A stretch of DNA of 50,131 bases from Candidatus Polarisedimenticolia bacterium (GTDB lineage Bacteria; Acidobacteriota; Polarisedimenticolia; Gp22-AA2; AA152), in assembly GCA_036004685.1 (NCBI GenBank), contig DASYRE010000060.1:1-50131 (forward strand), given 5' to 3'. The notes under the pieces are model-generated. The model had not been told where the DNA came from and made no database searches. It saw nothing but the letters and a program-made list of their open reading frames with translations. Of this stretch, positions 469 to 50,131 are shown piece after piece. Position 1 is the first letter of the stretch, and every line of letters begins with the position of its first letter. A program made the translations under genes and the position numbers.

Positions 469-479
469 TTTCTTCTGGC

Positions 480-1418: not shown

Positions 1419-1426
1419 TCAGTTCA

Positions 1427-1515
1427 GGCTAACGGCCGCGGCTGAGCTGCGCCGCGCTGGTAAAAGAGCCATCCTACAGTTTACGCGCGGCGTCAGCTCC
1501 AGCCCCTAGTTAGGC
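1427..1515 (-). repeat. attC site
   Basis: Core-like GGCTAAC (1427-1433) and GTTAGGC (1509-1515) flank two complementary arms, GCGGCTGAGCTGCGCCGCGC and GCGCGGCGTCAGCTCC, separated by a loop. This is the imperfect inverted repeat of an attC (59-be). It lies downstream of the DHFR-like gene and upstream of the Mrr-like gene on the minus strand, where a cassette boundary is expected. Confidence 0.85.
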
Positions 1516-1602
1516 AGCGCGAATTCGCATGCTAAGTACGACACGCCAAGCGACCGCTGGCGGCCCGATGTAGAAGGAACGACGACCTGGGAATCATAGA
1601 CT

Positions 1603-2168
<566 letters not shown>

Positions 2169-2184
2169 TATGTGCTCCTGAAGC

Positions 2185-2257
2185 GGGCAACGCTCCGCTG
2201 CAACCGGTTGTTATGCGCCAATGAATGAACGTATTCGGCTCCAAGCCGAAGTTATAC
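2185..2257 (-). repeat. degenerate or chimeric attC
   Basis: GTTATAC (2251-2257) overlaps the stop codon of the upstream cassette gene. It is preceded by CGGCTCCAAGCC, the same half-arm seen in the attC sites at 5241 and 5788. A second core-like GTTATGC lies at 2210-2216, with an unrelated arm, CGCTCCGCTGCAACCGG. The two halves do not pair, so this looks like a site assembled from two attC types or decayed. A short perfect hairpin, TTCGGCTCCAAGCCGAA, lies inside it. Confidence 0.45.
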
Positions 2258-2787
2258 GCCGGCGTCGCCGGCTTCCGGATACCACCATCCGAAAAACTCC
2301 TCAACAGCCTTTGGGCCAAGCTCGAGCACGGCTTCGGCGAGGCGCGTTTGACCCCGCGAGACCAAGAGTGCGGCTGCGGCCGCCTGACCAAACACATGAT
2401 CCCAGGCGTAGCGACTTTGCCGATGCACGGCATCCGCAAGAAGTGAGATTGCTTTCACGTAGCCACCTACCAAATCTTCAGGTATAGGCAGTGCATTCCT
2501 GCTGCCCTGGCGGTGAACCTCAACAGACGCAGGAAACGCAAAGAAATGCCAAGCGCACGGGCCGTCGACTGCCAGCGCGATTCGAACGATATGAGGGACC
2601 GTGGCATAACACGCGTCATACACGGTGCCTTGATGATGAACGGTGCCCCATAAGAACTCCCACGTCTCCTCATCTGCGTGGTGCGGAGCTCGTTCCAGTA
2701 CTCGGAGATATCTGGCACATCGCTCGCGATGCCAAATGCATGGTGTAGTTCAACCCACCGGCCGCTGCTCAGTGACAGGACTTCCAT
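2252..2787 (-). pseudogene. cassette gene of unknown function, frameshifted
   Basis: The likely start is ATG 2787 (MEVLSLSSGRWVELHHAFG). A second frame continues EFLWGTVHHQGTVYDACYA, then TVPHIVRIA, and ends at 2252 in FGWWYP. I recall the LWG.hHQG.VY.A.YA.P pattern from uncharacterised, often HEAT-like, bacterial proteins, but I cannot assign a function. The frames join near 2674-2676, where one missing base (CAG for CAGG) would restore TQDEETWEFLWG. The stop codon overlaps an attC core. The start lies just downstream of the attC at 2799-2884, leaving almost no leader, as is usual for cassettes. Confidence 0.6.
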
Positions 2788-2798
2788 TGCTCCTCGTG

Positions 2799-2884
2799 CG
2801 TATAAAGCTGCGGCGTGCGAGCGGCGGCGGTTCTTGCCGTGTGAGCGCGTGCCGCACGCCGGCAGCTTAATTCGCATGTTATAC
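2799..2884 (-). repeat. attC site
   Basis: The arms AGCTGCGGCGTGCGAGCG and CGTGCCGCACGCCGGCAGCT pair imperfectly around a GC-rich loop. The right core is GTTATAC (2878-2884); the left core is degenerate (GCGTATAA). The arms are close to those at 26227-26321 in the second array, so the two arrays share an attC subfamily. It ends the DUF6883/DUF4926 cassette. Confidence 0.8.
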
Positions 2885-2897
2885 GCCGTGCTCTCGT

Positions 2898-3131
2898 TCA
2901 GGCCGTACGGGTGAGCGGACGTACAGCAACGAGATCGGAGTCAGAGATTGGACGGACGTCTGAGAATTTGAGCGTAACGAGAGCAGTTGTGCGGCCAGAC
3001 GCTGTCACGAACTCGACTTCGAGGCCATCAGGCGGGTAGAGCTCAACCACGGCGCCAAGATCTCCAGCCTTAAGTCCATGAGCAGGGAGGTCCCGGATAA
3101 GAACAACGGTGTCGAGCGCTTGGTAGTCCAT
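2898..3131 (-). CDS. DUF4926 domain protein
   Basis: This 77-residue protein fits DUF4926 along its whole length: TVVLIRDLP..GLKAGDLGAVVE, then YPPDGLEVEFVTASG and the closing SDVRP region, which together look like a small SH3-like beta barrel. It starts two bases after the stop of the DUF6883 gene, so the two are almost certainly cotranscribed in one two-gene cassette. DUF4926 and DUF6883 genes are often neighbours, and the pair is suspected, not proven, to act as a toxin-antitoxin-like module. The frame is intact, unlike the four cassettes beyond it. Confidence 0.75.
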   Translation of the reverse strand: MDYQALDTVVLIRDLPAHGLKAGDLGAVVELYPPDGLEVEFVTASGRTTALVTLKFSDVRPISDSDLVAVRPLTRTA

Positions 3132-3133
3132 GG

Positions 3134-3466
3134 CTACCTCGGGAAAACCGTCACGAGTCGCGGGGGTGCCCCAGGGGTTGGAAGAATCCAGACCGTTGTA
3201 ACCTCCAAGGCAATTCCGCTCGGTCCTCTAAGAATACCCGAAATCGAGTATTTCTGGCCATATTCGCTGGCTTCGCCCAGGATAGCTTCTCCATTCCGAG
3301 CCCGGTCCAGAATGGCGGACCTCAGATCGACCCAGTTCGCAGCGTCGAAGCCCGCCCGGGCGAGGAATGCGGCTTTGAAACGGCCGATGGGGTGGGACTT
3401 CGATAACAGATATTCTCGAACCTTCCGCTCGTCGACGATAGCCCGCTCTGCGTTTGGAAGTTTCAT
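3134..3466 (-). CDS. DUF6883 domain protein
   Basis: The 110-residue protein begins MKLPNAERAIVDERKVREYL, then SHPIGRFKAAFLARAGF, and ends LVTVFPR, which is the DUF6883 pattern (helical start, central GRFKA.FF, then a beta-rich half with TVWIL). Function is unknown. The proline- and glycine-rich C-terminal half and the usual link with DUF4926 suggest a small cytoplasmic partner pair. It is the first gene of a two-gene cassette bounded by attC sites 3500-3593 and 2799-2884. The start codon ATG 3466 is the only sensible one. Confidence 0.75.
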   Translation of the reverse strand: MKLPNAERAIVDERKVREYLLSKSHPIGRFKAAFLARAGFDAANWVDLRSAILDRARNGEAILGEASEYGQKYSISGILRGPSGIALEVTTVWILPTPGAPPRLVTVFPR

Positions 3467-3499
3467 GACCCTTCAGCTTCTCTCAGTGCCATCCAGTGC

Positions 3500-3593
3500 G
3501 TATAACGTTCCGGCTAAGCTGCGGCGCGCGTGCTCAGCCACTCAATCCGGCACCGACCTCTCGCGCGCCGCCAGCTTCAGCCGGTTGTTAGCC
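3500..3593 (-). repeat. attC site
   Basis: GTATAAC (3500-3506) and GTTAGCC (3587-3593) bound the arms GCTAAGCTGCGGCGCGCG and CGCGCGCCGCCAGCTTCAGC, which pair well across a 35-base variable loop. The right core overlaps the stop codon of the truncated cassette gene at 3588. Confidence 0.88.
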
Positions 3594-3757
3594 GGAGCGG
3601 TCCGCCTCACGTACGCCAACGAAACCCTCAGTCGTCACGTCGAACTTCGAGAACCCTAATTCGACCATCGCGCGTTGGAGCGTTGGGGTTAACTCTGTTC
3701 CGTACACTTCCACTTCGCTCCACGGTGGGATGTGCGAATACTCGCCATGATGGAGAT
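3588..3757 (-). pseudogene. C-terminal remnant of a cassette gene cut by IS5
   Basis: A minus-strand frame open from the IS junction reads GDLHHGEYSHIPPWSEVEVY, then GTELTPTLQRAMVELGFSKF, and stops at 3588 inside an attC core. About 56 residues remain. Upstream (higher coordinates) the sequence changes abruptly to IS5 transposase near 3757. The family is not recognised. The piece shows that the IS, or the deletion that removed the IS left end, destroyed the 5' part of this cassette. Confidence 0.6.
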
Positions 3758-4438
3758 CGCCGGCTTCTCTCGGATGAGCACTTCACGGTGGATGGGACGC
3801 TGGTGGAGGCTTGGGCCGGCCACAAGAGCTTCAAGCCGAAGGACGAGGCTGCGAGGAAGCCGCCGGAGGATCCGGGGAATCCGACGGTGGACTTCACCGG
3901 GCAGAAGCGCTCGAACAAGACCCATGCGTCGACGACCGATAAGGACGCTCTTCTTTATCGCAAATCCTTTGGGACCGAATCGAAGCTGTGCTTCGCGGGC
4001 CACCTCTTGATGGACAATCGGCACGGCTTGGCGGTGGACGTCGAGCTGACCCAGGCCACGGGCCTCTCGGAGCGCGAAGCGGCCCTGAGAATGGCGGGAA
4101 GGATTGGCGGCTTCCAGCGGGTGACCCTGGGCGCGGACAAGGCGTTCGACGTTCGCGAGTTCGTTGGCACGCTCCGGGTAATGAAGGTGACGCCTCACAT
4201 TGCCGGGAAGAATGCGAGCTACAGCGCCATCGATGGAAGAACGAAACGATTTGCTGGGTACGTCTTGAGCCAGAGGAAGCGCAAGCGAGTCGAAGAGATC
4301 TTCGGTTGGCTTAAGACCGTCGCGCTGCTGCGGAAGACGCGGCACCGGGGCCTGGCGCGTGTCGGCTGGATGTTCACCTTCGCCACGGCCATCTACAACT
4401 TGGTTCGAATGAAAAACCTGGCGGCGGCAACCGGATGA
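3758..4438 (+). pseudogene. IS5-family transposase, N-terminally truncated
   Basis: The frame reads LLSDEHFTVDGTLVEAWAGH, a middle LGADKAFDVREFV, and RKRVEEIFGWLKT near the end, giving the D, D and E of the DDE catalytic triad. The usual N-terminal helical domain is absent. The open frame upstream of 3758 belongs to unrelated cassette and attC sequence, so the protein cannot start normally and should not be active by itself. It would be mobilisable only by a full copy, which the contig-end IS fragments imply exists nearby. Confidence 0.85.
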
Positions 4439-4575
4439 AGTCGTCCGCGACGCCTCGCCCGCTTGGATCGAAGCGAGATCATCAACACGATCTTGATGGA
4501 TAGAACCCATCGGGACTCCGAGATCAGGCTGGAGAGAAGAGGAACTCTCTCAAATCGCTATTTTTCCGCAGCCTG
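3758..4575 (+). mobile_element. IS5-family element, 5'-truncated
   Basis: The right end matches 1-121 and the reverse complement of 49996-50131, finishing in CCGCAGCCTG at 4575 and followed by TTAG, a YTAR-type target. The left end, with its inverted repeat and the N-terminal third of the transposase, is missing: homology starts abruptly near 3758. It is inserted in the cassette array, opposite in orientation to the cassette genes. The adjoining TTAGGC resembles an attC core site. Confidence 0.8.
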
Positions 4576-4586
4576 TTAGGCACCCG

Positions 4587-5183
4587 TTAACCCCCTGCGA
4601 CCCATTCGAAGACACCCAGAACCCGGCCATCATTCGCGTCGATTAGGACACTTCTACCATCGGCCCCGTACTTACTTTCGTGAAGGGTATTCGACACGCC
4701 CCATACATAGCCGAATTGGCGATTCCAAGTAAAACCCACACTCCATGGCTTGATGCCGGGCTCCAAGCCGGCCTTCCCAGAAACCTCGCGCGCAGTAGCG
4801 TCATTGTAGGGAAAAACGCATTCAAGTGGACTGGCGATGCACGGTGGCACGCCAGACAAGTCTGAGACTTTGCCGTCAGGATCGACAACGCAACTAATGA
4901 CTTCGTCAACGAAGTGGGTTTCGGGCATGCGGAATTTGAACGTTACCATGCAGTAAGGTCGCTGCATATACTCGGCACAGGCTTCCGGGTGCTCGATGCA
5001 ATGGGCAGACGGTGGAAAGTACTTTGCACTTTGCGGACTGATGTACTTCCCATAGAAGTCAGAGCCTACCAGTGCGATGATCGCCTGACTAGCGGGCACG
5101 TAGACTTGGCCACATTCCGGCTCACCACCCCAGATCATTCCCACAAGCATTAGCGGGAGTGCCACGAAGCTAAGGAATCGCAT
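4587..5183 (-). CDS. secreted cassette protein of unknown function
   Basis: I chose the start at 5183 because it opens with a signal peptide (MRFLSFVALPLMLVGMIWGG). The longer frame upstream runs through the attC site at 5241-5304. The mature protein of about 180 residues is cysteine-rich (CGQVYVPASQ, CIEHPEACAEY, CVVDPDGKV, PPCIASPLECVF) and should form disulfides outside the cytoplasm. No family is recognised. It is the third cassette from the attI-like site and is intact. The IS5 copy lies 11 bases beyond its stop and has removed or split its own attC. Confidence 0.65.
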   Translation of the reverse strand: MRFLSFVALPLMLVGMIWGGEPECGQVYVPASQAIIALVGSDFYGKYISPQSAKYFPPSAHCIEHPEACAEYMQRPYCMVTFKFRMPETHFVDEVISCVVDPDGKVSDLSGVPPCIASPLECVFPYNDATAREVSGKAGLEPGIKPWSVGFTWNRQFGYVWGVSNTLHESKYGADGRSVLIDANDGRVLGVFEWVAGG

Positions 5184-5240
5184 GGACGTTTTTGGCCTAC
5201 AAGCAGATGCAGACACCTTGCCGTTTGCTCCTTCGGGTGT

Positions 5241-5304
5241 GCCTAACCGATGCGGGTTGAGCCGCGGCCAGCTTTTGGCCGTCGGCTCCAAGCCGAGGTT
5301 AGCC
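5241..5304 (-). repeat. attC site
   Basis: A compact 64-bp site runs from GCCTAAC (5241-5247) to GTTAGCC (5298-5304), with the arms GGTTGAGCCGCGGCC and GGCCGTCGGCTCC around a TTTT-containing loop. It is almost identical to the next site at 5788-5850. It follows the membrane-protein cassette. Confidence 0.92.
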
Positions 5305-5315
5305 GGCCGTTCGCT

Positions 5316-5762
5316 TCAACCGCGATATTCACTGACCAAGATCCCTACCATTACTATAGCGAGGAGAGGAAGCCACGAGGTGATGAAGTGCAGTGCAACC
5401 TGCTCCTCTGGCTCAAAGTAGGGATTGTAGGTTGTCGTGAAACTCGTACTGTGCCAGACCGCGAACAAGAGCGCCATACCAATGCCTGCGACGAGGCTAT
5501 ACCGCAGCAACTTCCTGCCCCACGACGGGAGCTGACTGCGGCGGAGTTTTTCCAGGAAGAGCTGTGTGGACAGAGCCAGTAGTAAAAGAATCAGCAGGCC
5601 CGGTAATTTGAAGTAGATGAATTGCCAAACTTGGAATCCGACCCCGTTCGCGTACGACTCGGGTGTCTCAGGCAGGGCAAGTTTGGTGCTGACGGTCGCG
5701 TATCCATAGCCAACCGTTAACACGGCCCAGAATAGTACCGTCAACAGCATTGCCCTCGACAT
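5316..5762 (-). CDS. small integral membrane cassette protein
   Basis: The 148-residue protein has about four predicted membrane spans: LLTVLFWAVLTVGYGYA (residues 6-22), LPGLLILLLLALSTQLFL (53-70), YSLVAGIGMALLFAVW (88-103) and LPLLAIVMVGILV (131-143). A basic stretch, KLRRSQLPSWGRKLLR, sits between the second and third. No enzymatic motif is seen and the family is not recognised. It is the second cassette from the attI-like site and is flanked by two nearly identical attC sites, which suggests both cassettes came from one source array. Confidence 0.7.
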   Translation of the reverse strand: MSRAMLLTVLFWAVLTVGYGYATVSTKLALPETPESYANGVGFQVWQFIYFKLPGLLILLLLALSTQLFLEKLRRSQLPSWGRKLLRYSLVAGIGMALLFAVWHSTSFTTTYNPYFEPEEQVALHFITSWLPLLAIVMVGILVSEYRG

Positions 5763-5787
5763 AATCCCTATCTCGATTTCCAGGTCC

Positions 5788-5850
5788 GGCTAACGATGCG
5801 GGTTGAGCCGCGGCGCGCTTTTCGCCGTCGGCTCCAAGCCGGGGTTAGCG
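5788..5850 (-). repeat. attC site
   Basis: GGCTAAC (5788-5794) and GTTAGCG (5844-5850) enclose GGTTGAGCCGCGGCGCGC and CGCCGTCGGCTCCAAGCC. Apart from a few loop bases it matches the site at 5241-5304. The right core contains the stop codon of the first cassette gene. Confidence 0.92.
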
Positions 5851-6315
5851 GGCACGTTCACCCTTCCACGCGACGACAAGAGGGTCCTTGGCCCACGTTG
5901 CGTCATACCTTCCCTCAGCCGTGCAATTGTCCCTGCTCGCGATCGGTAGCAAACTCCAGACATGTGGTGGGATCGTTGGCTCGCCCTTGACCCTTACCGC
6001 TCGGCCGGCAGATTGGACAGTAAGAAACAACCAGAAGACGAATAGCGGATTTGGCTCCCCACCGTGGACAAAATCCATCCAGCCTTCGGCCTGAACCTCA
6101 CCTGCCGTGTTGAGCACCCGTACTCCAGAAAGACTCTCCAGCATCGCATCGGCAAGACTCGTACAGTGACCTTCCTGACAGGATTGAGACCAGTCAATGG
6201 CGAGACCGGAGGGGGTGAGCCCATAGGGCAGCAGGTCATTGAGAAGCTGGCGCTCCACTTCTGACCTCAAATCAGGCCCCATCCGCTCGACTTCATAGGA
6301 CAATGCTCGGTCCAT
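5845..6315 (-). CDS. first-cassette protein of unknown function
   Basis: A 156-residue soluble protein with no signal peptide. Recognisable stretches are an acidic start, EVERMGPDLRSEVERQLLN, and a central GYxFVHGGEPNPLFVFWLF-like segment at about residues 83-98, which may be buried or membrane-associated. No family is assigned. It is the cassette next to the attI-like site. The start ATG 6315 lies only 11 bases from the core site GTTAGCG, with no clear ribosome-binding site, so expression must depend on a promoter inside the leader at 6337-6508. Its stop codon overlaps the attC core at 5844-5850. Confidence 0.65.
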   Translation of the reverse strand: MDRALSYEVERMGPDLRSEVERQLLNDLLPYGLTPSGLAIDWSQSCQEGHCTSLADAMLESLSGVRVLNTAGEVQAEGWMDFVHGGEPNPLFVFWLFLTVQSAGRAVRVKGEPTIPPHVWSLLPIASRDNCTAEGRYDATWAKDPLVVAWKGERAR

Positions 6316-6325
6316 GACAATGTCC

Positions 6326-6508
6326 CGCTAACTAGCTTTGTGCCGATCCCCATTATTTGATAGGGCGGCGGGAATGGCGAGAATAAAAAATAGTGCTGCG
6401 AGGGAGCGTTTCGGAAAGCCGCCTGAATGCAACGCGATAGAGCGCGCGCGACCGGTTTCGGGGACGACTTTTCGCCGAAATAGACTGACCTGTACGAAAA
6501 AATATGGC
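6326..6508 (-). other. attI-like site and conserved leader, copy 1
   Basis: The core CGCTAAC/GTTAGCG lies at 6326-6332. Upstream of it on the minus strand is a leader (6337-6508) repeated at 28043-28215. The blocks shared by the two copies, on the plus strand, are TTTGTGCCGATCCCCATTAT, ATAAAAAATAGTGCTGC and CTGACCTGTACGAAAAAATA. Each copy stands at the same place: at the head of a cassette array and directly beyond the 3' end, or deletion scar, of intI. That is the position of attI and the cassette promoter. I could not point to a convincing -35/-10 pair in it. Confidence 0.7.
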
Positions 6509-6529
6509 TGCGAGCGGCGGGCTGGGGAG

Positions 6530-6700
6530 TCATGGCTTGACCTCTCCGGTGGGTGACGTCGGCGGGCACCCGAGCCGGTCCATCGGGCTGCGGACCGCGG
6601 CGGGTCCGCGGTTGAGGACGTGGGTGTAGATCATCGTGGTGCTCACGTCTTTATGTCCGAGGAGCTCCTGCACGGTCCGGATGTCGTAGCCGTCCTCGAG
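6530..6700 (-). pseudogene. intI: integron integrase, C-terminal fragment
   Basis: The last 56 residues of an integron integrase remain: [20 protein letters not shown] and [12 protein letters not shown], followed by the VRSPMD tail. The histidine of LLGHKDV and the tyrosine nucleophile of YTHV are present. The matching N-terminal part, with the arginine and lysine of the active site, is at 11125-12033 on the same strand, and the break falls inside the ATHLL/LEDGYD junction of the family. The stop codon lies about 20 bp from the leader of array 1. It is therefore one half of an interrupted intI, not a separate gene. Confidence 0.9.
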
Positions 6701-6754
6701 TCGCTTTATCGCTGCCGGATGGTCCAAAACGTGACACCCATGCGCATCGATCAC

Positions 6755-7165
6755 CTATCGTTTGCGCGGGACGGACCTGACCTTGAGCCGGACACCTCCT
6801 GGGAATGCCCAGTGGCGATAGGCCTCGATCCATTCGGCACCTCCAGGTGGCGGGAAAGGCAGTGGCATGTCGAGGATGGGGATGGCCTGCCGGCTCCTGC
6901 CTCGGCGGCAGATTGCGACGATCTCGTCAGCCTGCGTGAGGTCGATCCGCTCCACAGTAACCGTCACTCCCAGCACCAAGGTCTCGAACGGCAGCCCCAG
7001 GTTGTCTTCCAACATCGTCAGGAACCCCGTCTTCTGCTCAGATTCACCATAGGCGTCGACGGTGGCTTCTTTGACGAGCTTTTCTAAGAGAATCTTTTTT
7101 GGTGGCCAGCGACGATCTCCTTTCTCAGAGGCTCGTCGTCCTTTCCTTATACGATTTCGCGTCAT
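6755..7165 (-). CDS. small acidic/basic partner protein of the primase-helicase
   Basis: I chose the start ATG 7165 because it overlaps the helicase stop codon as ATGA, which implies translational coupling. The longer frame, starting at 7198, has no support. The 136-residue protein has a basic N-terminus (TRNRIRKGRRASEKGDRRW). It then reads VDAYGESEQKTGFLTMLEDN, LPFETLVLGVTVTVERIDL and EIVAICRRGRSRQAIPI, and ends GAEWIEAYRHW. Related short proteins are often labelled calcium-binding, but I see no EF-hand. Its role is probably tied to the upstream gene. Confidence 0.6.
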   Translation of the reverse strand: MTRNRIRKGRRASEKGDRRWPPKKILLEKLVKEATVDAYGESEQKTGFLTMLEDNLGLPFETLVLGVTVTVERIDLTQADEIVAICRRGRSRQAIPILDMPLPFPPPGGAEWIEAYRHWAFPGGVRLKVRSVPRKR

Positions 7166-9681
7166 GGGCCTTCTCCCCCCAGGTCGTCGAAGTGACAAGG
7201 AGCCTTCTCGTCATATTCGACGTGGGGTTCGTCGACAGGGTCCGAATAGTTGGAGGGCGGCTCGCCGCGCACATAACCGAGGGCCCGGTATGCTCGCAGC
7301 CGCTTCTCGAACATGCGCCGCAGCACAGGCACCGAACCGTCGACATAATCGAAAATACGCACGGTTGTCTTCCCGGGGCGGATCCGATGCAGGCGACCTG
7401 CGTACTGTGCCAGCGTTCCCTTCCACGAGATTGGCATAGCAAGGAAAAGAGTATCGAGTCTGATGTCGTCGAACCCTTCACCGATGTACCGCCCGGTCGC
7501 AAGGATAAGTCGCTCCTCGTCCTCCGGTATTTCGGCGAGCTGGGTGACGAGCTTCTGCCGCTGCTTGGGGGTTCCACCACCTCGGAGCACGATAAGGTTG
7601 CGGACGAAGCCACGCAGCTTCGCCGCGAAATAATCGAGGTGATCACGCCTCTCGGTCAGCAGGACCGGAGACGCCCCAAGTTCGACAGCCCGAATCACGT
7701 CGTCGAGGACGAGGCGGTTGCGCTGCTCATCGGCCGCCAGAGCCCCGTAAATGTCTTGAATCCCGACCTCATTCGGCACTGCTTTCAGCCAAAAGCTTGT
7801 CTCACGAACGACGAGCTCATATTTGAACAGTTGCCTCGCAGCGGGGCTCTTCGCTTCCACGCAAAAACGTGCGGGTCCGAGCTGCATCTCCAGAATCGGG
7901 TGATGACCGTCGCGGCGATTCGGCGTCGCTGTGAGCCCCAGGACGTATCGTGCCTTGACCTCCGAAAGAACACGCTCGAACGACACAGCCGGGACATGGT
8001 GGCACTCGTCCACGATGACATGTCCGTAGGTGGCGACGATATCGTCGACGTGTTCCCCACGGACCAGACTCTGAATCATCGCCACATCCAAGATACTGTT
8101 GGCATTGCGTTTCCCGCCTCCAATCTGTCCCACTTCCTTCTCGTCGACGCCTAGAAAGGCTGAAATCTGGGCAACCCACTGGTCGAGCAGCGGCCTCCGG
8201 TGAACGAGGATGAGGGTGCTGCGACCCCGTTGAGCGATCAGGTGAGCCCCGAGAACGGTCTTCCCGATCCCGGGGGGTCCGACGAATACGCCGATGTCGT
8301 GGGGAAGGAGTGCCTTTGCTGCGCGCTCCTGGAGCGGTGTGAGCTCGCCGCGAAACTGGAAGCATAATGGTTGGCCCTCGTGACGCTGATCATCGAGCGA
8401 GAGCTTGATGTCATACCTTTTCAGGAGCCCCTCGACCGCGCTGCGGCAGCCGCGTGGCAACGCAATGTGGCGCGGCAACTCCTGGGCGCAGGAGATTACG
8501 CGCGGCGTCTTCGCGATCGAAAGTCGCATCGACTGCCTTCTGTAGAACTCAGGGTTTTGGAAGGCGGCAAGGCGCTTGATCTCGTTGAGCAACGGTGACG
8601 GGACGGCATCCTTGTCGATAAAAAGCCGCTGGGCGAGGACGGCGTTCACTTCGCTTGGCAGCGGCCCGGGAATGGACGAGCGGCCGGAATTGCCCATTGG
8701 CAACTGCCTGCGTGGTTCGGTCCCCTCATCATCCATAGGTTCGGCAATCCTCACACCTACGACCGCATCCCGACGCTCAGCCTCCCGCGCGATCGCCTCG
8801 ACCCCTTCAGGTTCAAGCCTCGGGACCGCCGCGAGGTAGGCCCATTGATCGAGGTAAGGCTCGAACCCCGCATCGAGGAAGACGGTATTCCCGCGTCGGC
8901 GAGCTTCATACTGAAGGGGCAGGGCGATGAGGTTCCCGAAGCCCCCATGTGGCATTGTGTCCTGGTTTGGGAAGAGCCGGTCGTATGAATCCATGCTGAG
9001 CTGGTGTCGACGGGCCATTGTCTCGGTGAGAAGGTGGGATCCCATTTTCCGGGCGAGGGCCGACGGGATGGGGGATGCAAAAAAGAACCAGGCGTGGGCA
9101 CCATTGCCCGACCGGGATCGCTCCAGGGAACAAGGAACTCCCATGATTCGGCAGGTTTCGATGAAACTGGCCACATCTTCCTTCCAAGAAGCCTTGTCGA
9201 AATCGACAGCAAGAAACCAGCATGTAGCGTCGCGGAGCAGTGGGTACACTCCCATTACATGGCGACCCCGGAGGTGACCCAGAACGACCTGGTCGTTTAC
9301 GGAGAGGAAGGCTTGGTTCGGACACTCCCCGCATCGGATTTTGGGAAGCTCGCAAACACCCTTCACGAACTTGTTCGCGCACGCGGGCGCATAGCCCGAC
9401 TGGCCACTTTTCTTGCTTAGGAAGCGGGTTGGGAAGACATCGTCACGCCCGCGAAAGAGGGATCGGAAAAGCGCCACCTTCTCCACAGCTGAGATCGGAC
9501 CCGAAGGGCGATTCACGGCCGAAACGTGGCTGCCCGGAACCTGGAGACGGATGGTGGCCTCCAGCTCGCGTCGTAGTGCCTTCAGACGCTCACAAGATTC
9601 TTTTCGTTCAGAATTGAGTTTAGCGAGGCGGCCCTCTTCCTGGGCGATGAGCGAGAGCAGATCCGCCCTCGTGGACTTCAT
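7162..9681 (-). CDS. archaeo-eukaryotic primase / SF2 helicase fusion (TOTE conflict type)
   Basis: This 839-residue protein starts with a coiled coil (about 10-45). A primase domain of the AEP superfamily follows: a cysteine cluster (CANKFVKGVCELPKIRCGEC, 101-120), the metal-binding DFD (160-162) and GAHAW (195-199). The C-terminal half is an SF2 helicase/translocase with Walker A GPPGIGKT (468-475), DECH (558-561), TATPN (584-588) and motif VI QYAGRLHRIRP. The primase domain is the one I know as the TOTE conflict-system primase, found in mobile systems thought to act against invading DNA. That role is inference. No nuclease domain is visible in the protein itself. It is the centre of the island that splits intI and is coupled to the downstream small gene. 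Confidence 0.82.
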   Translation of the reverse strand: MKSTRADLLSLIAQEEGRLAKLNSERKESCERLKALRRELEATIRLQVPGSHVSAVNRPSGPISAVEKVALFRSLFRGRDDVFPTRFLSKKSGQSGYAPACANKFVKGVCELPKIRCGECPNQAFLSVNDQVVLGHLRGRHVMGVYPLLRDATCWFLAVDFDKASWKEDVASFIETCRIMGVPCSLERSRSGNGAHAWFFFASPIPSALARKMGSHLLTETMARRHQLSMDSYDRLFPNQDTMPHGGFGNLIALPLQYEARRRGNTVFLDAGFEPYLDQWAYLAAVPRLEPEGVEAIAREAERRDAVVGVRIAEPMDDEGTEPRRQLPMGNSGRSSIPGPLPSEVNAVLAQRLFIDKDAVPSPLLNEIKRLAAFQNPEFYRRQSMRLSIAKTPRVISCAQELPRHIALPRGCRSAVEGLLKRYDIKLSLDDQRHEGQPLCFQFRGELTPLQERAAKALLPHDIGVFVGPPGIGKTVLGAHLIAQRGRSTLILVHRRPLLDQWVAQISAFLGVDEKEVGQIGGGKRNANSILDVAMIQSLVRGEHVDDIVATYGHVIVDECHHVPAVSFERVLSEVKARYVLGLTATPNRRDGHHPILEMQLGPARFCVEAKSPAARQLFKYELVVRETSFWLKAVPNEVGIQDIYGALAADEQRNRLVLDDVIRAVELGASPVLLTERRDHLDYFAAKLRGFVRNLIVLRGGGTPKQRQKLVTQLAEIPEDEERLILATGRYIGEGFDDIRLDTLFLAMPISWKGTLAQYAGRLHRIRPGKTTVRIFDYVDGSVPVLRRMFEKRLRAYRALGYVRGEPPSNYSDPVDEPHVEYDEKAPCHFDDLGGEGP

Positions 9682-9894
9682 TCGATTCCCATGCCGGTGC
9701 GACGATCCGGCTCCTATCGACTCGTGTCAGGAAGAGCGTGCGAAATGTCTCAGGGACGTACGTCCGGGGGCGTTCGTTCGCAGTCCGCCGGTCGCCTTCT
9801 CATGGTTTCAGCTTTCGCAGGAGCTTCATCTGCCAGTATCCAAGAAGGCAGTGCACCGACGGACATTCTAAAGGTGCATTTCCCAACGGGAGGA

Positions 9895-10278
9895 TTAAGT
9901 TGCGCCACCATCTCCGATCGGAAGTGGACGCACACGATGGCGACCCTCCTCGATCACGACGACGGCGCCCCTTCCCAGAGCTTCTGAACACTTGTCAAGA
10001 ACGACGGACAGGCGATCGATGACGTGTGCGGTGCGGGTGTTGTGGAGACGGAAAACCACCACGCTCACGGTGCGCCCGCGCGCAAGTGCCGCGATTTCGC
10101 CGAAGTCGAGATCGAAGGTAAGTACGATTCGACTCTCGGCAATCGCCTTCGCGAAGATTTCGCCGTTCGGAAGTCGGTGAAGACCCTCATCGCGGAGGTG
10201 AACCGGCTCGTGACCGTGTTCGCGAAGCCACGTAACGACGCGAACGTCCACACCCATATCCACAAGGAATCTCACCAT
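9895..10278 (-). CDS. DUF5615 PIN-like toxin candidate
   Basis: The 127-residue protein reads MVRFLVDMGVDVRVVTWLRE and later AKAIAESRIVLTFDLDFGEI. This is the DUF5615 (Mut7-C/PIN-like) pattern, with an early aspartate and a later D.DF pair that would bind metal in the ribonuclease fold. It lies 12 bp after a DUF433 gene, the usual antitoxin partner, so the two form a type II toxin-antitoxin pair by analogy. The C-terminal residues beyond about 110 (HRVRPLPIGDGG) are variable. Confidence 0.82.
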   Translation of the reverse strand: MVRFLVDMGVDVRVVTWLREHGHEPVHLRDEGLHRLPNGEIFAKAIAESRIVLTFDLDFGEIAALARGRTVSVVVFRLHNTRTAHVIDRLSVVLDKCSEALGRGAVVVIEEGRHRVRPLPIGDGGAT

Positions 10279-10290
10279 CTTCTCCGCTGT

Positions 10291-10512
10291 CTACTGGGTG
10301 ACGTGGACCTGCTCTTGAGCGAGCCATGCAGCGTATCCGAGAGCCTGCTGAATATCCTCGCGCTCAAGGTCCGGGTATCCGGCCAGGATTTCCTCGAAAG
10401 TGGCTCCATGGGCGATCTGCCCTACGATCACCGAAACGGGGATTCGCATCCCGCGGATGCACGCTCGCCCGCCCAGGATCTGAGGGTCGAAGGTGATCCG
10501 GTCGAACTCCAT
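10291..10512 (-). CDS. DUF433 antitoxin candidate
   Basis: The start ATG 10512 is fixed by AAAGGAGGT a few bases upstream; the longer frame to 10587 has no such site. The 73-residue protein reads FDRITFDPQILGGRACIRGM, then RIPVSVIVGQIAHGATFEEI and LAGYPDLEREDIQQAL. That is DUF433, a small HTH-like fold that serves as DNA-binding antitoxin to DUF5615 proteins. The pair is probably autoregulated at its own promoter upstream of 10512. Confidence 0.85.
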   Translation of the reverse strand: MEFDRITFDPQILGGRACIRGMRIPVSVIVGQIAHGATFEEILAGYPDLEREDIQQALGYAAWLAQEQVHVTQ

Positions 10513-10661
10513 CTTGGCACCTCCTTTGCTGCCTATACTAACCCTCTCCGCGGGTATTTCGCATCCCGCCGGTTCCTTCGTGTTCATAAGGCTCGGAAGC
10601 GAATTTCCGCGCCCTCGAATTTCGGGCGAGTGGCTATCATGCCGGGGCGCCCTGAACGCCG

Positions 10662-11117
10662 CTACTCAAGTTCCGATCGGACCGGCTTGGGAGATTTCCG
10701 TTCCAGGAACATTTTCACCTTTTCACGAAATCGCTTTGGGGGGCTCGTTGCCCCGGTTTCCCAACGGGCTATTGTGCAGCGATCCACGCCGATCAGAATG
10801 GCCAGCCGTTCCTGTGAAATCGCGAGGGATCTCCGGCAGGCAGTCAGCCTCTCGCCTAGGTCTTCAATCTTCTCAAGAGCCTGAACCCCCAGGAACTCGT
10901 TGAGCTTAGGCGCTACCCACCGCGCCGGAGCAATTCCACGACGCTCCCAGTTCTCCACGCTCTTCTTGTCGACGCCCAGCACCTTCGCCAGCTTCCTCTG
11001 ACTCAGCCCCAAGTCCATCCTGCGCTTCCGAATCCGGTCCCCAAGGGTCCTGACTTCACGAGGGTAGCCCGTCGGCAGCCGCTTCTGTCCCCGGAGGGTG
11101 ACATGGCAAAAAGGCAA
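10662..11117 (-). CDS. tandem XRE-type HTH regulator
   Basis: Two helix-turn-helix domains are visible: RTLGDRIRKRRMDLGLSQRK with LGVDKKSVENWE (about 23-60), and LGERLTACRRSLAISQERL with IGVDRCTIARWETG (about 87-122). The N-terminal CHVTLRGQKRLPTGYP segment is shared by many relatives, so the protein is nearly complete. However, its only upstream start is a TTG at 11117, very close to the island boundary, and the start may have been altered by the insertion. It overlaps the out-of-frame tail of the intI fragment. It probably controls the conflict genes of the island. Confidence 0.75.
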   Translation of the reverse strand: MPFCHVTLRGQKRLPTGYPREVRTLGDRIRKRRMDLGLSQRKLAKVLGVDKKSVENWERRGIAPARWVAPKLNEFLGVQALEKIEDLGERLTACRRSLAISQERLAILIGVDRCTIARWETGATSPPKRFREKVKMFLERKSPKPVRSELE

Positions 11118-12033
11118 CGCCTTGCAGCAGATGGGTCGCGAAGGAATGCCGGAAGGTGTGGCAGCTGGCGGGCTTGGTGATCCCGGCCCGGCGGACGGCC
11201 TTGAAGACCTCCCGCTGGATCGCCGATTCGTGGAAGTGATGGCGCCGGACCTGCCGGGCCCGCGGTTCCGCGTACCGCCGCGAGGCGGGGAAGACCCATT
11301 GCCAGCTCCAGTCCCGGCCGGCCTGGGGATATTTCCGCCCCAGGGCCTCGGGTAGCTCGACCCAGCCGGCGCCGAGCAGGAGATCGGCTTGATGCTGTGA
11401 CCGGACGAACTCCAGGTGCCGCCTCAGCCTCTCCTGCGCGATGGCGGGGAGCAGCGTCACGCGATCCTTGTTCCCCTTGCCGCGCCGCACGATGATCTGG
11501 CTGGCACCGAAGTCGACGTCCTTGATCCTCAGGCGCAGAGCCTCGGTCAACCTCAACCCGCCGCCATAGAGCAGCGTCACGACCAGCCAGGGGATTCCGC
11601 CGAGATGCCCGAGGATCGCCCGCACTTCGTCGCGGGCGAGGACCGTTGGAAGCCGCCGGGGCCCGCGGGCCCGGACGAACCCTTCCAGCCAGGCGAGGTC
11701 GCGGCGCAGCACCGTGCCGTAAAGGAACAGAAGCGCGCATAGCGCCTGGTTCTGGGTCGAGGACGCCACTTTGTGGTGAATGGCGAGGCTGGTCAGGAAA
11801 CGGGTCACTTCCTCCTGGCCGAGCGGGGAGGGATGGCGCTTGCCGTGGAAGAGGATGAACCGCCGGATCCAGCCGACGTAGGCCTCCTCGGTCCGGGGGC
11901 TGTAATGCTCGGCGCGCAGGCGCCTGCGGACTTCGTCGAGGAACCTCGGTTTGTCCGCGGAGGGCCGCGAGTCGGGAGTGATGACCAGGGGCATCGGCAC
12001 GGTGGTGTCGGGGGAGTCGAGATGGGCGATCAT
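11056..12033 (-). pseudogene. intI: integron integrase, N-terminal fragment
   Basis: Starting at ATG 12033 (MIAHLDSPD), the frame follows an integron-type tyrosine recombinase for about 303 residues. It has the core-binding domain (about 30-125), the active-site arginine in GGGLRLTEAL (R161), the lysines of GKGNKDRV, the extra IntI segment with LPEALGRKYP and WSWQWVFP (about 226-270), and HTFRHSFATHLL (292-303). Homology stops at about 11125. The remaining residues to 11056 (VAFLPCHPPG...) are island sequence. The missing end, with the catalytic tyrosine, is at 6530-6700. The fragment alone cannot be active. A conserved promoter lies upstream at 12088-12116. Confidence 0.9.
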
Positions 12034-12040
12034 TCGAACC

Positions 12041-12120
12041 CCCGGGGAAATGGCTCTCCTGGCTCGGAATGGGGGCGCGTTGGTGAAACTATACGCCGCC
12101 GGAGGCTTTGGCGCAAGGAC
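12041..12120 (-). promoter_or_regulatory. intI promoter region (Pint), copy 1
   Basis: On the minus strand, TTGCGC (12116-12111) and TATAGT (12093-12088) are spaced by 17 bases, about 55 bp upstream of the intI start. The surrounding 80 bp (GGCTCTCCTG, CTCGGA, GAAACTATA, CAAGG) recur at 28250-28330. This shows that the second array once had the same integrase promoter. Confidence 0.7.
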
Positions 12121-24539: not shown

Positions 24540-24600
24540 CGTATTGCCCCGTTAAGGAGTCGGCCGTTCTGCGGCTGGTCGCCTTTAAGGGCGGGCTAGG
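24540..24600 (-). repeat. degenerate attC
   Basis: The plus strand reads CGTTAAGGAGTCGGCCG, a short loop, then CGGCTGGTCGCCTTTAAGGG and GGGCTAGGC. The arms GTCGGCCG and CGGCTGG pair partly. The right core is GCTAGGC instead of GTTAGGC and lies inside the last codons of the membrane-protein gene. Probably a decayed cassette end. Confidence 0.45.
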
Positions 24601-25076
24601 CAGCAGGTGCACTTGCCAATGATCCATCCAGTGCCTGCAAAAAGCACCAGGTAAGCGATCCCGGGTATTAAATGGGCGGCCAATGTCTGAGGCTGCCCGG
24701 GAAAGGCGCTAGCACTCCGAACCAAGTCGACCTCCTCGACCGTGTAAAACCAGTGATACGTGCGATTGCTCGCTATGAGGGCATGCAGGATCCGCAAGAA
24801 TCCGAATACAGAAAGTGAACTGACGGCAGCGCTAACTGCGGCGGGCACACCCGGGGATGACGGGACCACATAATTGCCTAGAACGATCAGCCAGCCAATT
24901 GGAGCGATTGTGATGGTAAGCATGGACACGGCGATTCTCCAGGCGACCCGCTGGCGATCCTCGCCTTTCCGCCAGAGCGATGCTGTATCGAATGCCCTAA
25001 ACCGCGACGCCCCCCCGAGAGCAAGCGCCCAGAAGAACGCATAGAAAAAGAGGAGGGAGTTCGTTCCGTTATCCAT
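24585..25076 (-). CDS. cassette-borne membrane protein of unknown function
   Basis: The 163-residue protein has about four membrane segments: SLLFFYAFFWALALGGAS (7-24), ISVMLTI-like helix with APIGWLIVLGNYV (45-70), VSAAVSSLSVFGFLRILHAL (82-101) and LIPGIAYLVLFAGTGWIIG (136-154). It ends in CTCCLARP. No family is recognised. It lies between a clear attC (25099-25158, belonging to the upstream FRG cassette) and a degenerate one, and so is the most distal gene that can be placed in array 2 with some confidence. Confidence 0.65.
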   Translation of the reverse strand: MDNGTNSLLFFYAFFWALALGGASRFRAFDTASLWRKGEDRQRVAWRIAVSMLTITIAPIGWLIVLGNYVVPSSPGVPAAVSAAVSSLSVFGFLRILHALIASNRTYHWFYTVEEVDLVRSASAFPGQPQTLAAHLIPGIAYLVLFAGTGWIIGKCTCCLARP

Positions 25077-25098
25077 AAAGCATCATCATATCTTGGCT

Positions 25099-25158
25099 GC
25101 CTAACGTGCGCGTTCACCAGCGCCGTTCTCCGGCGCCGGCTGCAACGCAAGGTTATGC
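25099..25158 (-). repeat. attC site
   Basis: A compact 60-bp site from GCCTAAC (25099-25105) to GTTATGC (25152-25158), with the arms CACCAGCGCCG and CGGCGCCGGCTGC around TTCTC. It lies 10 bp after the FRG gene on the minus strand. Confidence 0.9.
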
Positions 25159-25167
25159 TTTGATCCG

Positions 25168-26205
25168 TTAGCGAGCGGCATCCTCCTCCTTGGAAGTTCG
25201 TACAAGGATGACTACTCCCTTGAGGGTCTCAATGAACGCCTGCTTCTTTGTCTCCCAATCGTCACGCATCTTTGCGAGCGTGGCCGGATCGGCAGGCGAT
25301 GCTACTTCTGACTCGAACCTGACGTCATTCTCCGCCTCAATTTGACGCAGTACCTCCTGCATGTCTTTCGTGCCGATATCGAGCCCGTTGCGCGACAGAT
25401 CTTCGATGGTCGCGATGCCATTTGCAACGGGAAGAAGGCGAGAGTGCTTTATCGCCGTCGCCCACTCTTGCAGCGGATCAACCGGCATCAATGCCTCGCC
25501 GCCATCAAACAGATCCAGCAAGCGCTCGCCGAGTGCAGCCGAGTGATCAAATGAAACGGCTTCGACCACAGGAAGGTCCTCGAAATCTTCCCCAAGCATC
25601 AACTCCATTGTCCATGCCCATTGGGCATGTGGTCGCGCAAATGGTTGCAGATCAATCCACTTGATCCGACCGAATCCGATCGCCTCATTGGAGCCAACCC
25701 AGTCGACGCGATAGAGGATTCCCCGGCCCTTGGTCCTTGGCTCCCACCGGCCATCGCGTAGCTCACAACACGCGAAGAACAACGCGACTTCCATCGATTC
25801 GGTCAAGTCGATGTAGCCGGTAGCCAGTTCGTAGTGCTGGGCAAGCGCCGTCCGGTCGAGTGCATATCGTTCGCCCCTTGCCCATTCGAAGACGGGATGA
25901 GACTTCAGTATCTCTGCGTACCAATTGACGCGAATCAGGTCAGCAACAAGGCGCAGCTGTTCGTGCGGCTCCAGTTCGCCAAGAGCCCTTGCCCTTGTAG
26001 TCATCCCACGGGCAATAGATGCTGTGCAGGACCAGTATCGGCGACTCTGGCCCCTGTACAAGTATCGGATTCCATGCGACGGCGCTAATCCCCTTTCTCC
26101 GTCGGGGTTCTGCCACCAAGTCCACGCGCGCTTTACTTTTCCGACACAACCATGCTGATCGATCCAGGCTAATAACGTCGAGTGAGGGACGTAGCCGAGA
26201 TTCAT
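25168..26205 (-). CDS. FRG-domain protein
   Basis: The 345-residue protein has IRYLYRGQSRRYW (the YRGQ/FRG motif, about residue 50), HPVFEWARGER, ALAQHYELATGYIDLTESME (the family's QH.G..T...D.T) and VALFFACCELR. FRG domains occur in mobile and phage-defence genes; their biochemical action is not established. The C-terminal 100 residues (helical, AENDVRFESEVASP) look separate. The ATG at 26205 is preferred over the one at 26211, since AGGAG is eight bases upstream of it and only two from the other. Intact cassette in array 2, bounded by good attC sites. Confidence 0.85.
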   Translation of the reverse strand: MNLGYVPHSTLLAWIDQHGCVGKVKRAWTWWQNPDGERGLAPSHGIRYLYRGQSRRYWSCTASIARGMTTRARALGELEPHEQLRLVADLIRVNWYAEILKSHPVFEWARGERYALDRTALAQHYELATGYIDLTESMEVALFFACCELRDGRWEPRTKGRGILYRVDWVGSNEAIGFGRIKWIDLQPFARPHAQWAWTMELMLGEDFEDLPVVEAVSFDHSAALGERLLDLFDGGEALMPVDPLQEWATAIKHSRLLPVANGIATIEDLSRNGLDIGTKDMQEVLRQIEAENDVRFESEVASPADPATLAKMRDDWETKKQAFIETLKGVVILVRTSKEEDAAR

Positions 26206-26226
26206 GTGCATCTCTCCTGATCGGAA

Positions 26227-26321
26227 GCATAACGCATGGTCAAGATGCGGCGTGCGAGCGCCGACGCATCCTGCCGTGCGTGAGCGTGCCGCACGCCGTC
26301 AGCTTAATGCGCTGGTTGGGC
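26227..26321 (-). repeat. attC site
   Basis: From GCATAAC (26227-26233) to GTTGGGC (26315-26321). The arms GATGCGGCGTGCGAGCG and CGTGCCGCACGCCGTCAGC match those of the array 1 site at 2799-2884 closely, with a longer loop. It marks the boundary between the FRG cassette and the next one. Confidence 0.85.
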
Positions 26322-26656
26322 CGCTCACCTTCAGTCGAAGAAGCCCAATACCTCATCTGACCACTCATGACCTGCCGACGAAAACCCGCCCGCAGCAGGT
26401 TTCGGTAAACCCCGTGCGGCAGTAGCCTCGACTTTTCACGAAGTCGAAAGCGGCATGGGGATAGCCGTTAATTCTGAGGATGACACTAAACCGCCGACCC
26501 CGTAAACGCCTTGGGTTCCGCACCCCGGAGGAATGCTATGTCCCCTGAACCCTTTTGTTGCACTTCAAGGTTGATATCAAACCGCTCCCAGGAGCACGGC
26601 CTCGCCCTCGCGCTCACCCTCGACGTACCGTAATTTCTGCCAGAACCGCATGATTC
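26322..26656 (-). other. cassette segment with no intact gene
   Basis: These 335 bases follow the SnoaL-like gene up to the attC at 26227-26321. On the minus strand, short open frames near the attC look like the end of a lost coding region, but none is complete. On the plus strand the middle carries the end of an IS30-type transposase (separate entry). The region is best read as a decayed cassette invaded by an IS. Confidence 0.5.
26480..26580 (+). mobile_element. IS30-family remnant (3' end)
   Basis: The frame from 26480 reads MTLNRRPRKRLGFRTPEECY and stops at 26546-26548. This is the closing LN.RPRKRLG(F/Y)RTPEE signature of IS30 transposases. It is followed by TTGTTGCACTTCAAGGTTGA, resembling an IS30-type terminal repeat. 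Only about 100 bp remain; the rest of the transposase and the other end are gone. Confidence 0.7.
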
Positions 26657-27121
26657 CTATTGCGTGGTCATCAGCGAATAGTGATTCGCCACCAGCTGCC
26701 ACCTCCCGTCCGTCATGACCCAGACGCGCGTGAAACGGTTTTCGCGCGGGACGTCCTTGCCCTTGTCCTGTCCGACCATCGTGGAACGACCGGTCTCCAC
26801 CACGGTATTTCCATACACGCGCACGCGAACCTCGGCGGTGGTGATGGATTGGTACGTCAGCGCATGCGTTGTGAAGTCAGCGATGACCTCTGCCTTGTTA
26901 CGCACGACGCCGGTCGGTCCGATGCCGAGAAAGTCATCGGCATAGATGCGGCGAAGCGCGATGGTGTCGGCAGCGATCTGCGCGCGAATCCGCTCCTGAT
27001 CCTGCTGCTGAACGGCCTGCTTGGTACTCGCCGCATCCCGTGTCCGTGCGCTCTGCTGCTGCGCGATGGTGCTCGAGACGGCCGACAGCACGAGCGCAGC
27101 GATGATCGACGTTCGTTTCAT
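26657..27121 (-). CDS. secreted SnoaL/DUF4440-like protein
   Basis: The likely start is ATG 27121 (MKRTSIIAALVLSAVSSTIA), which opens with a signal peptide. The mature 130 residues read IAADTIALRRIYADDFLGIG, NKAEVIADFT and RFTRVWVMTDGRWQLVANHY. This is the cone-shaped NTF2/SnoaL fold of DUF4440 proteins, with the family-typical aspartate of DDF and a W at the end. No catalytic role can be assigned. It is the second cassette from the attI-like site of array 2. Its own cassette end is blurred by the IS30 remnant. Confidence 0.85.
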   Translation of the reverse strand: MKRTSIIAALVLSAVSSTIAQQQSARTRDAASTKQAVQQQDQERIRAQIAADTIALRRIYADDFLGIGPTGVVRNKAEVIADFTTHALTYQSITTAEVRVRVYGNTVVETGRSTMVGQDKGKDVPRENRFTRVWVMTDGRWQLVANHYSLMTTQ

Positions 27122-27313
27122 TAGACCCTCCATAGGAGCCGGATCGTAAGCTACTGCGGGTAGAGATGGCTGCGTCCAACGGCCGGTGGGTTGGCATTAG
27201 GGTTCGCGCCGGGCATGTAGCGAGCCCGCATTTGCCGGAGTGCCTTACGTCGTAATTCATCGACAACGCGTCACAGTCTCGTGTCGCATGGTCGAGTCGT
27301 CGGAACGGGTGCG

Positions 27314-27376
27314 GCCTAACGATTGCCATTCAGCCGCCGGCTGATTTTGCCGGTCGGCTGCAAGGGCGGGTTAGAC
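27314..27376 (-). repeat. attC site
   Basis: From GCCTAAC (27314-27320) to GTTAGAC (27370-27376), 63 bp, with the arms CAGCCGCCGGC and GCCGGTCGGCTG around TGATTTT. It is the cassette end of the gene at 27381-27890, whose stop lies five bases away. Confidence 0.92.
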
Positions 27377-27380
27377 CGCT

Positions 27381-27890
27381 TCATTTTGGTGCTCCAAGAA
27401 CAGCAGTAGCGAGATCAGGATTCTTGTTTAGCGCATCAACAGATGCCGGGTTACCGGCCGTCGCCTCGAGCACAAAGTGGCCCACGGCTTGAACAGTCTC
27501 CTTCTTAGCACCGCCGTCTGCACCCTTTACAAGGAATACGTTGCTATTCTCCAGCGGGAATGACTTGCCTTGAACAAGCGCAGTTTTCATATCGGCTGAT
27601 ATCGTCAGGCTCAGCACAAGGTCGTCGGAGATGAGCTTGTAGGACGCATCCTTGCCACCATCTCGATGATAATTAAAATCGGTCTTCCACTTTCGGTTGT
27701 GCCAACCGGGAGCACCAATGAAGTAGACGATAGCAAGGGCGCGAGGTTTGCCGTCAACGACTTCATTAAGCCACATCGACACTGTACTTTCCGAAAGTGG
27801 GAACGCTCCGATGCCTTCGACCTTTCCGGCAGCAGTGGCAGTAGCGGTGAAAAGAAGAATGGTTGCGAGCCCTATGCGGAGTTTGTGCAT
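27381..27890 (-). CDS. secreted first-cassette protein of array 2
   Basis: A 169-residue protein with the signal peptide MHKLRIGLATILLFTATATA. The mature part contains VSMWLNEVVDGKPRALAIVY, FIGAPGWHNRKWKTDFNYH and a C-terminal ATAGNPASVDALNKNPDLA. No family is recognised. GAGGAC stands a few bases before ATG 27890. The gene begins 24 bp after the core site GTCTAAC (27914-27920). That places it as the cassette nearest the recombination site, and it is intact. Confidence 0.7.
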   Translation of the reverse strand: MHKLRIGLATILLFTATATAAGKVEGIGAFPLSESTVSMWLNEVVDGKPRALAIVYFIGAPGWHNRKWKTDFNYHRDGGKDASYKLISDDLVLSLTISADMKTALVQGKSFPLENSNVFLVKGADGGAKKETVQAVGHFVLEATAGNPASVDALNKNPDLATAVLGAPK

Positions 27891-27913
27891 CTCGTGTCCT
27901 CTGTTCGCAGGCG

Positions 27914-28215
27914 GTCTAACTAGTCACAATGGAACGACCGGCTCCGATTCGCAGCGTCGAAGGTTACGCTGCGGGTCGGACGACCAACGTAGCGCAGAGC
28001 TACATGCGAAAGGAGCTGGTCGCCCCGATCGCCTCCCACCGATTTGTGCCGATCCCCATTATTTGATAGAGCTGCACGGACGGCGAGGATAAAAAATAGT
28101 GCTGCAAGAGTCTTTTCGGGAAAGCTCCTTGCAATCCAAGGACATACGATGCGAGAGCGCTCTTTCATCGGAGTCTTCCGCCGAAATAGGCTGACCTGTA
28201 CGAAAAAATAGGGCC
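27914..28215 (-). other. attI-like site and conserved leader, copy 2
   Basis: The leader at 28043-28215 repeats 6337-6508 with the same conserved blocks (TTTGTGCCGATCCCCATTAT, ATAAAAAATAGTGCTGC, CTGACCTGTACGAAAAAATA). Unlike copy 1, about 120 bp separate it from the first core site, GTCTAAC (27914-27920). That spacer contains CCGATTCGCAGCGT and ACGCTGCGGGTCGG, which can form a hairpin. Both copies keep the bases CTA next to the core (CTAGTTAG on the minus strand), so the spacer may be an insertion or a remnant cassette. Confidence 0.65.
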
Positions 28216-28249
28216 GCGTGGGAGGGCGGGACGGGCTTTCATAAAGACT

Positions 28250-28330
28250 CCCGGAAACGGCTCTCCTGTCTCGGATGTGGGGGCGGGTGCTAGATGAAAC
28301 TATAAGCCCGTCATGCGCTGGCACGCAAGG
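28250..28330 (-). promoter_or_regulatory. intI promoter region (Pint), copy 2, without intI
   Basis: This 80-bp block repeats 12041-12120 (GGCTCTCCTG, CTCGGA, GAAACTATA, CAAGG). On the minus strand TTGCGT (28328-28323) and TATAGT (28304-28299) are 18 bases apart. The ATG that corresponds to the intI start falls at about 28241-28239. It is followed after a few bases by sequence matching the region just beyond the intI stop of copy 1, so the coding sequence has been lost almost exactly end to end. Confidence 0.65.
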
Positions 28331-49795: not shown

Positions 49796-49995
49796 ATGAC
49801 TCTATTGGCCCGGCTGGATCCCTCTACGTATTCAGATGATCAGCTTGTCGGGGTCGCGGCTGTTTCGCAAGGAGAACTGCCAGATCCCGTGCCGGATGAG
49901 CGGTGGCAATACATCCCGGAGCGTGTGTGGAGTCGGATCCAACACCTTGGCTCGGCGTACGAACTCCACTTTGCGGCCCTGGTGGAGCCTGTTAG
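49796..49995 (+). pseudogene. gene truncated by the right-end IS5
   Basis: An open frame from ATG 49796 reads MTLLARLDPSTYSDDQLVGV, then ELPDPVPDERWQYIPERVWS and RIQHLGSAYELHFAALVEPV, after which it runs into the IS end at 49996. About 65 residues of the original protein remain. The family is not recognised. TTAG (49992-49995) next to the IS end is the expected target duplication. Confidence 0.55.
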
Positions 49996-50131
49996 CAGGC
50001 TGCGGAACAATAGCGATTTGAGAGAGTTCCTCTTCTCTCCAGCATGATCTCGGAGTCCCGATGAGTCCTATCCGTCAAGATCGTGTTGATGATCTCGCTT
50101 CGAGCCAAGCGGGCGAGGCGTGGCGAACGAC
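49996..50131 (-). mobile_element. IS5-family element, right end, inverted
   Basis: This is the reverse complement of the IS tail at 4439-4575 and, more closely, of 1-121, starting CAGGCTGCGGAAC. The body lies beyond the window. It is oriented opposite to the copy at the left end, so the contig is bounded by two outward-lying IS copies, which is a typical assembly break at a repeated element. Confidence 0.85.

Follow-up and report, generated by a model that had tools for sequence, protein, structure and literature searches.

Promoter-attI heads without an integrase gene in an acidobacterial genome, and the case for a single integron integrase serving them in trans

By the usual description, an integron has one integrase, one attI site and one array of gene cassettes. 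The integron considered here lies in the window, by which we mean the whole 50,131-nucleotide stretch analysed (contig DASYRE010000060.1, assembly GCA_036004685.1), from the genome of a soil bacterium of the Acidobacteriota (Candidatus Polarisedimenticolia), and the same window holds a second integron head made up of a promoter and an attI site without an integrase gene (intI). Among the closest described systems are clusters of attC sites lacking integron integrases (CALINs), as defined in two papers (PMC8618304, PMC12444791), one of which (PMC12444791) gives loss of intI among the proposed origins of such arrays and states that a functional integrase (IntI) can mobilise them in trans. For Treponema phagedenis, a further paper records that intI has been lost and attC sites left behind (PMC3607928). 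In class 1 and class 2 integrons, Delta-attI-type gene cassettes bring additional attI sites, some of them partial and some complete, which lie elsewhere than at the usual head and can be used by IntI1 (PMC12901181). The program IntegronFinder 2.0 does not detect attI sites, which are poorly described outside class 1 (PMC9024848), and heads such as those described below would therefore be overlooked by it.

Head 1, on the minus strand, comprises a putative intI promoter (TTGCGC N17 TATAGT) with its 5' untranslated region (5'UTR) and start codon at 12031-12116, the 5' part of intI at 11126-12033, an element of ~4.4 kb (no strand assigned) at 6701-11125, the 3' part of intI at 6530-6700 with the catalytic tyrosine region and the stop codon (TCA, 6530-6532), the attI leader and core at 6328-6525 (core 6328-6335), and cassettes below 6315. 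This integron is of the inverse (Treponema) type, with promoter, intI, attI and cassettes all running leftward, and the leader is attI because it sits between intI and the first cassette in this layout. Its terminal core, CTAGTTAG, where IntI would be predicted to recombine as at a G/TTRRRY-type site, abuts the first cassette in head 1, in head 2 and in a third head on another contig (C46) of the same genome (G000). The 5' fragment of IntI matches the integron integrase family TIGR02249 with 365.8 bits (cut-off 265), over positions 1-274 of 315 only, because the 4.4-kb element interrupts the gene and leaves the tyrosine part beyond the insert. This interrupted gene, at 6530-12033, is the sole intI of the genome.

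Head 2 repeats this arrangement on the same strand with intI missing. The first-pass annotation had reported that the leader and the intI promoter of head 1 recur at 28043-28330, about 35 bp apart, in place of the gap that the interrupted intI occupies in copy 1, and pairwise alignment within the window bears this out: 28043-28230 matches 6337-6525 in an alignment of 193 columns with 77.2% identity (E 5e-30), and 28253-28308, in the promoter/5'UTR block, matches 12046-12097 at 80% (E 3e-7), the block as a whole pairing 28253-28328 with 12046-12116. A profile of the promoter block, which includes a relative's head and has copy 2 itself as one of its sequences, stretches the copy 2 match to the -35 box (28240-28329, 75 bits). 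The former intI promoter of head 2 (28240-28328) has its -35 box TTGCGT at 28328-28323 and, after N18, its -10 box TATAGT at 28304-28299, followed by the conserved 5'UTR and an ATG at 28242-28240, whose forward-strand CAT corresponds to that of the intI start codon in copy 1 (12031-12033). Next come the attI leader, with a distal and a proximal conserved block (28043-28219), a segment of ~119 bp (27924-28042) that heads 1 and 3 do not have, and the core CTAGTTAG, which adjoins the first cassette. This core (CTAACTAG, 27916-27923) falls outside the interval of the first-pass annotation; leader and core are both homologous to head 1, and the ~119 bp between them are not a genome repeat, with a single 31-bp match elsewhere.

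Copy 2 is a promoter and attI without intI in cis, heading three attC-bearing cassettes. The annotation had gone further, proposing that intI was deleted cleanly from a duplicated head so that its start triplet runs directly into sequence resembling that around its stop. The CAT match and the duplicated, intI-less head with its own attC array stand; the junction itself shows a short, weak match to sequence past the intI stop, and exact deletion is unproven, the junction fitting an ATGA/ATGA microhomology between intI start and stop. Its reading was incomplete in another respect, namely that the "leader" is attI and that the "intI promoter", in an inverse-type integron, is now directed across attI and into the cassettes.

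The attC sites, searched for as hairpins bounded by R''/R' motifs, were found behind every head of this genome, namely head 1 (four, plus one defined by repeats), head 2 (three), the C46 head and a further head on contig C11, and one weak match was returned from ~48 kb of same-strand control DNA on the same contigs. Array 2 (24585-27915, minus strand, left end not firmly placed) has its attC sites at 27376-27314, 26321-26227 and 25158-25099, and its attC-bearing cassettes, which include DUF4440 and FRG-domain ones, share one orientation, on the strand of head 2, as in a complete integron. With three attC sites and no intI it falls under the definition of a CALIN (at least two attC without a neighbouring intI), with the sites counted by our hairpin search; the usual description of CALINs as headless does not apply, as a promoter and attI stand in front. 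One attC of array 1 and one of array 2 are 84.5% identical, and the two arrays have an attC family in common.

The first-pass annotation had derived two arrays from one ancestor. The heads are indeed homologous, but the count was too low: the genome has at least four heads, three of them integrase-less and each fronting its own cassettes, and similar heads occur in four other genomes. The head at C46:907-1249 scores 148.8 bits (leader) and 83.5 bits (promoter block) against the profiles and has, in order, promoter, 5'UTR, ATG, ~55 bp, leader, core and cassette, with no intI. Of the 21 bases that open intI it retains 15 (MIAHLDS vs MTIHPES), about seven intI-like codons, which argues that it derives from an intI-bearing head. 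Since this junction differs from that of copy 2 and keeps those codons, the intI losses in copies 2 and 3 were probably separate events. The head at C11:3389-3737 is more diverged (21 and 14.5 bits), with order, strand and spacing as expected. The first cassette of the C46 head (L007 226-906, G000:C46) encodes an AbiU2-like HEPN protein and is a possible phage-defence cassette; at C46:36463-36601 (L098), a leader match of 20.9 bits without core or promoter is a possible remnant of a fifth head.

Used as a DNA query against 59 relatives, copy 2 gave no match outside its own genome, and the heads of relatives needed profiles. A strict promoter pattern (f2) matched intI heads only, and the leader search then yielded more. 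The search of related genomes called for by the first-pass annotation recovered leaders or heads without intI in G001 (same family), G003, and G005 and G007 (sister family). G001 has three integrase-less leaders at three different sites, one of which (C97) has attC in the sequence retrieved, and no intI was found in it even at E 0.01; G003 has one promoter-bearing head without intI. In the sister family, G007:C48, G007:C18 and G005:C109 were found with the attI of the G005 intI as query, and in all three TTGC-N17-19-TATA(G/T)T lies just ahead of the leader with no intI between. The intI open frame is complete in both G005 and G007, reading through the catalytic tyrosine. The integrase-less head thus recurs in two families, and where downstream sequence is at hand no copy of the repeat was seen to lack cassettes, G005:C109 meeting a contig end near attI and G007:C18 ending just within its first cassette. 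For heads 1-3 of this genome, G001:C245 and C97, G002:C144 (another genus) and G007:C48 and C18, the usual position is within ~200 bp of the 3' end of a preceding gene that runs in the same direction (msrA, topA, vgrG, a transporter, an argJ-like gene, a peptidase); at topA, the sequence of relatives is unrelated and gives no boundaries for the head. The attI core pattern had no match in public genome and viral collections, from which the window itself and near genomes may have been left out.

All 11 promoter-bearing heads examined, with intI or lacking it, have TTGC-N17-19-TATA(G/T)T, and the distance from promoter to core is 176-375 bp without intI vs ~1.25-1.3 kb in intact heads, so that the former intI promoter could feed the first cassettes directly, given that removal of intI brings it closer to the core. 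In the three leaders of this genome, identity clusters in a distal block (TATTTTTTCGTACAGGTCAG.CTATTTCG) and in a proximal block reaching to the core, the spacer having diverged, and this clustering exceeds all 20,000 permutations (p<5e-5); the G001 leaders likewise show two conserved blocks and a diverged spacer. With sites defined on the other copies, heads 2 and 3 differ at 11 of 85 conserved sites (13%) vs 32 of 108 others (30%, p=0.004), and pairs of G001 leaders differ at 7-17% of conserved sites vs 31-45% elsewhere (p<=3e-5). A conserved small open reading frame in the leader is not supported, as its frames vary between copies, and an SOS/LexA site was weighed as a possible reading of the distal block.

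The interrupted integrase itself bears marks of past constraint. Compared with G002, dN (nonsynonymous) is 0.19 and dS (synonymous divergence) is 1.33, for which the simplest reading is that the protein was under selection until the insertion. The interrupting element, which encodes a helix-turn-helix protein, DUF433, DUF5615 and a TOTE primase-helicase, also occurs in G002:C144, in another genus, at the same intI codon, and is 91.8% identical between the two vs 71.3% for the intI parts; two recent, independent insertions at one preferred site would be the simplest reading. It has CT at its flanks, a DUF433/DUF5615 pair and no recognised transposase, with an apparent second copy in tandem in G002, and it looks like a site-specific element aimed at integrase genes.

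Taking these observations together, the best explanation is probably that a single integrase served, in trans, promoter-attI heads scattered over the chromosome, a judgement that, as regards action in trans, promoter activity and the order of events, is drawn from sequence comparison. A head, with or without its cassettes, would have been copied to new chromosomal sites, often immediately after a gene running the same way; the surplus copies of intI would have been deleted, with promoter and attI retained; the one remaining IntI would have recombined cassettes into each attI in trans; and the old promoter, once intI had gone, would transcribe through attI into the first cassettes. The broader picture, in which integrons of this Acidobacteriota order would be built as a hub with spokes, one integrase acting in trans on several dispersed promoter-attI heads without intI, every one of which would supply an expressed array of its own, has in our view about an even chance of being right.

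A number of points weigh against this explanation, and several of them favour the main rival view, that the extra intI copies decayed after integron duplications and that promoter and attI are leftovers, giving ordinary CALINs with a fossil head and nothing acting now. The intI gene is broken or was not found in G000, G001, G002 and G003, leaving this genome without an intact copy and G001 and G003 with none found; the attI of copy 2 is split by ~119 bp; the C11 head is weak and strongly decayed; and the plain clustering test on the head 2-head 3 pair alone is weak (p=0.03), their divergence being near uniform, so that constraint after intI loss may be weak in this genome. Part of the leader conservation may also be older than the intI losses. 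In G007, the integrase-less leaders resemble the G005 attI (81%) and match it better than the attI of G007's own intI, and the present IntI of G007 may not be their partner. The genomes compared are, except for a few, draft metagenome-assembled genomes, with several of the heads close to the ends of their contigs. With intI broken by the 4.4-kb element and the attI of copy 2 split, copy 2 may be inert, and the system of this genome is probably stalled now. As a general account, though, decay has to accommodate many integrase-less heads whose promoter spacing and two attI blocks have been retained alongside a diverged spacer, similar heads in G005 and G007, whose intI frame is complete, and a TOTE insertion in intI that looks recent, and we regard it as possible but rather unlikely.

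Retention of the head for driving adjacent cassettes, with no part for attI in recombination, would fit a promoter and 5'UTR kept without intI and facing the cassettes at close range. It is improbable, given that the three heads of G001 lack such a promoter yet have the attI blocks, and that the strongest conservation takes in sequence adjoining the crossover core. A still smaller chance attaches to the integrase-less head being a mobile or ancestral unit that spread without intI, most copies never having had one: chromosomal sites do differ between genera, leaders are closer within than between genomes, as in repeated expansion within lineages, and the G001 heads share one truncated layout, but the stretch in copy 3 like the first seven intI codons and the start codon and intI 5'UTR in copy 2 point to an intI-bearing origin, and no boundary repeats were seen. 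An assembly artefact is unlikely, as heads 1 and 2 share a contig and the junctions left where intI is missing vary between copies and genomes, and an unrelated dispersed repeat is ruled out by a repeat that is specific to integron heads, has attC cassettes behind all copies in this genome and extends to the promoter and 5'UTR.

Array 1 (1-6327, minus strand) has attC sites at 5850-5788, 5304-5241, 3593-3500 and 1515-1427 and the repeat-defined one at 2880-2805, and is interrupted by an insertion sequence. Segments 1-124, 4455-4578 and 49993-50131 are 93-97% identical and inverted at the contig ends, 4455-4578 adjoining a DDE transposase gene, and an insertion sequence probably ended contig assembly here.

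If dispersed heads are indeed served by one integrase, one enzyme could govern cassette capture and expression at places across the chromosome, some CALINs would have heads that current software ignores, and the origins of CALINs would become directly testable using the natural heads of one genome. No description of such heads was found in the open-access literature searched for several, solo or orphan attI sites, which is not proof of novelty. Delta-attI-type cassettes involve short pieces (attI1 variants of 14-18 nt and one complete 65-bp site) that replace attC inside one mobile-integron array (PMC12901181), whereas here whole promoter-attI heads occupy separate chromosomal sites. Xanthomonas chromosomal integrons, in the available part of the account, are alike in repeated intI inactivation and in having further cassette clusters at several places in the chromosome, with retained intI genes at ilvD and no attI or promoter head reported for the extra clusters (PMC12444791). 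The chromosomal integron of Treponema denticola has the same inverse layout as head 1, going by the accessible portion of the paper, which counts one attI per integron and describes no dispersed integrase-less attI heads (PMC3607928). With CALINs, finally, the integrase-less arrays have in common their attC-bearing cassettes and the lack of an adjoining intI, and they differ from them in the recognisable promoter and attI head that stands before the array, several times over in one genome.
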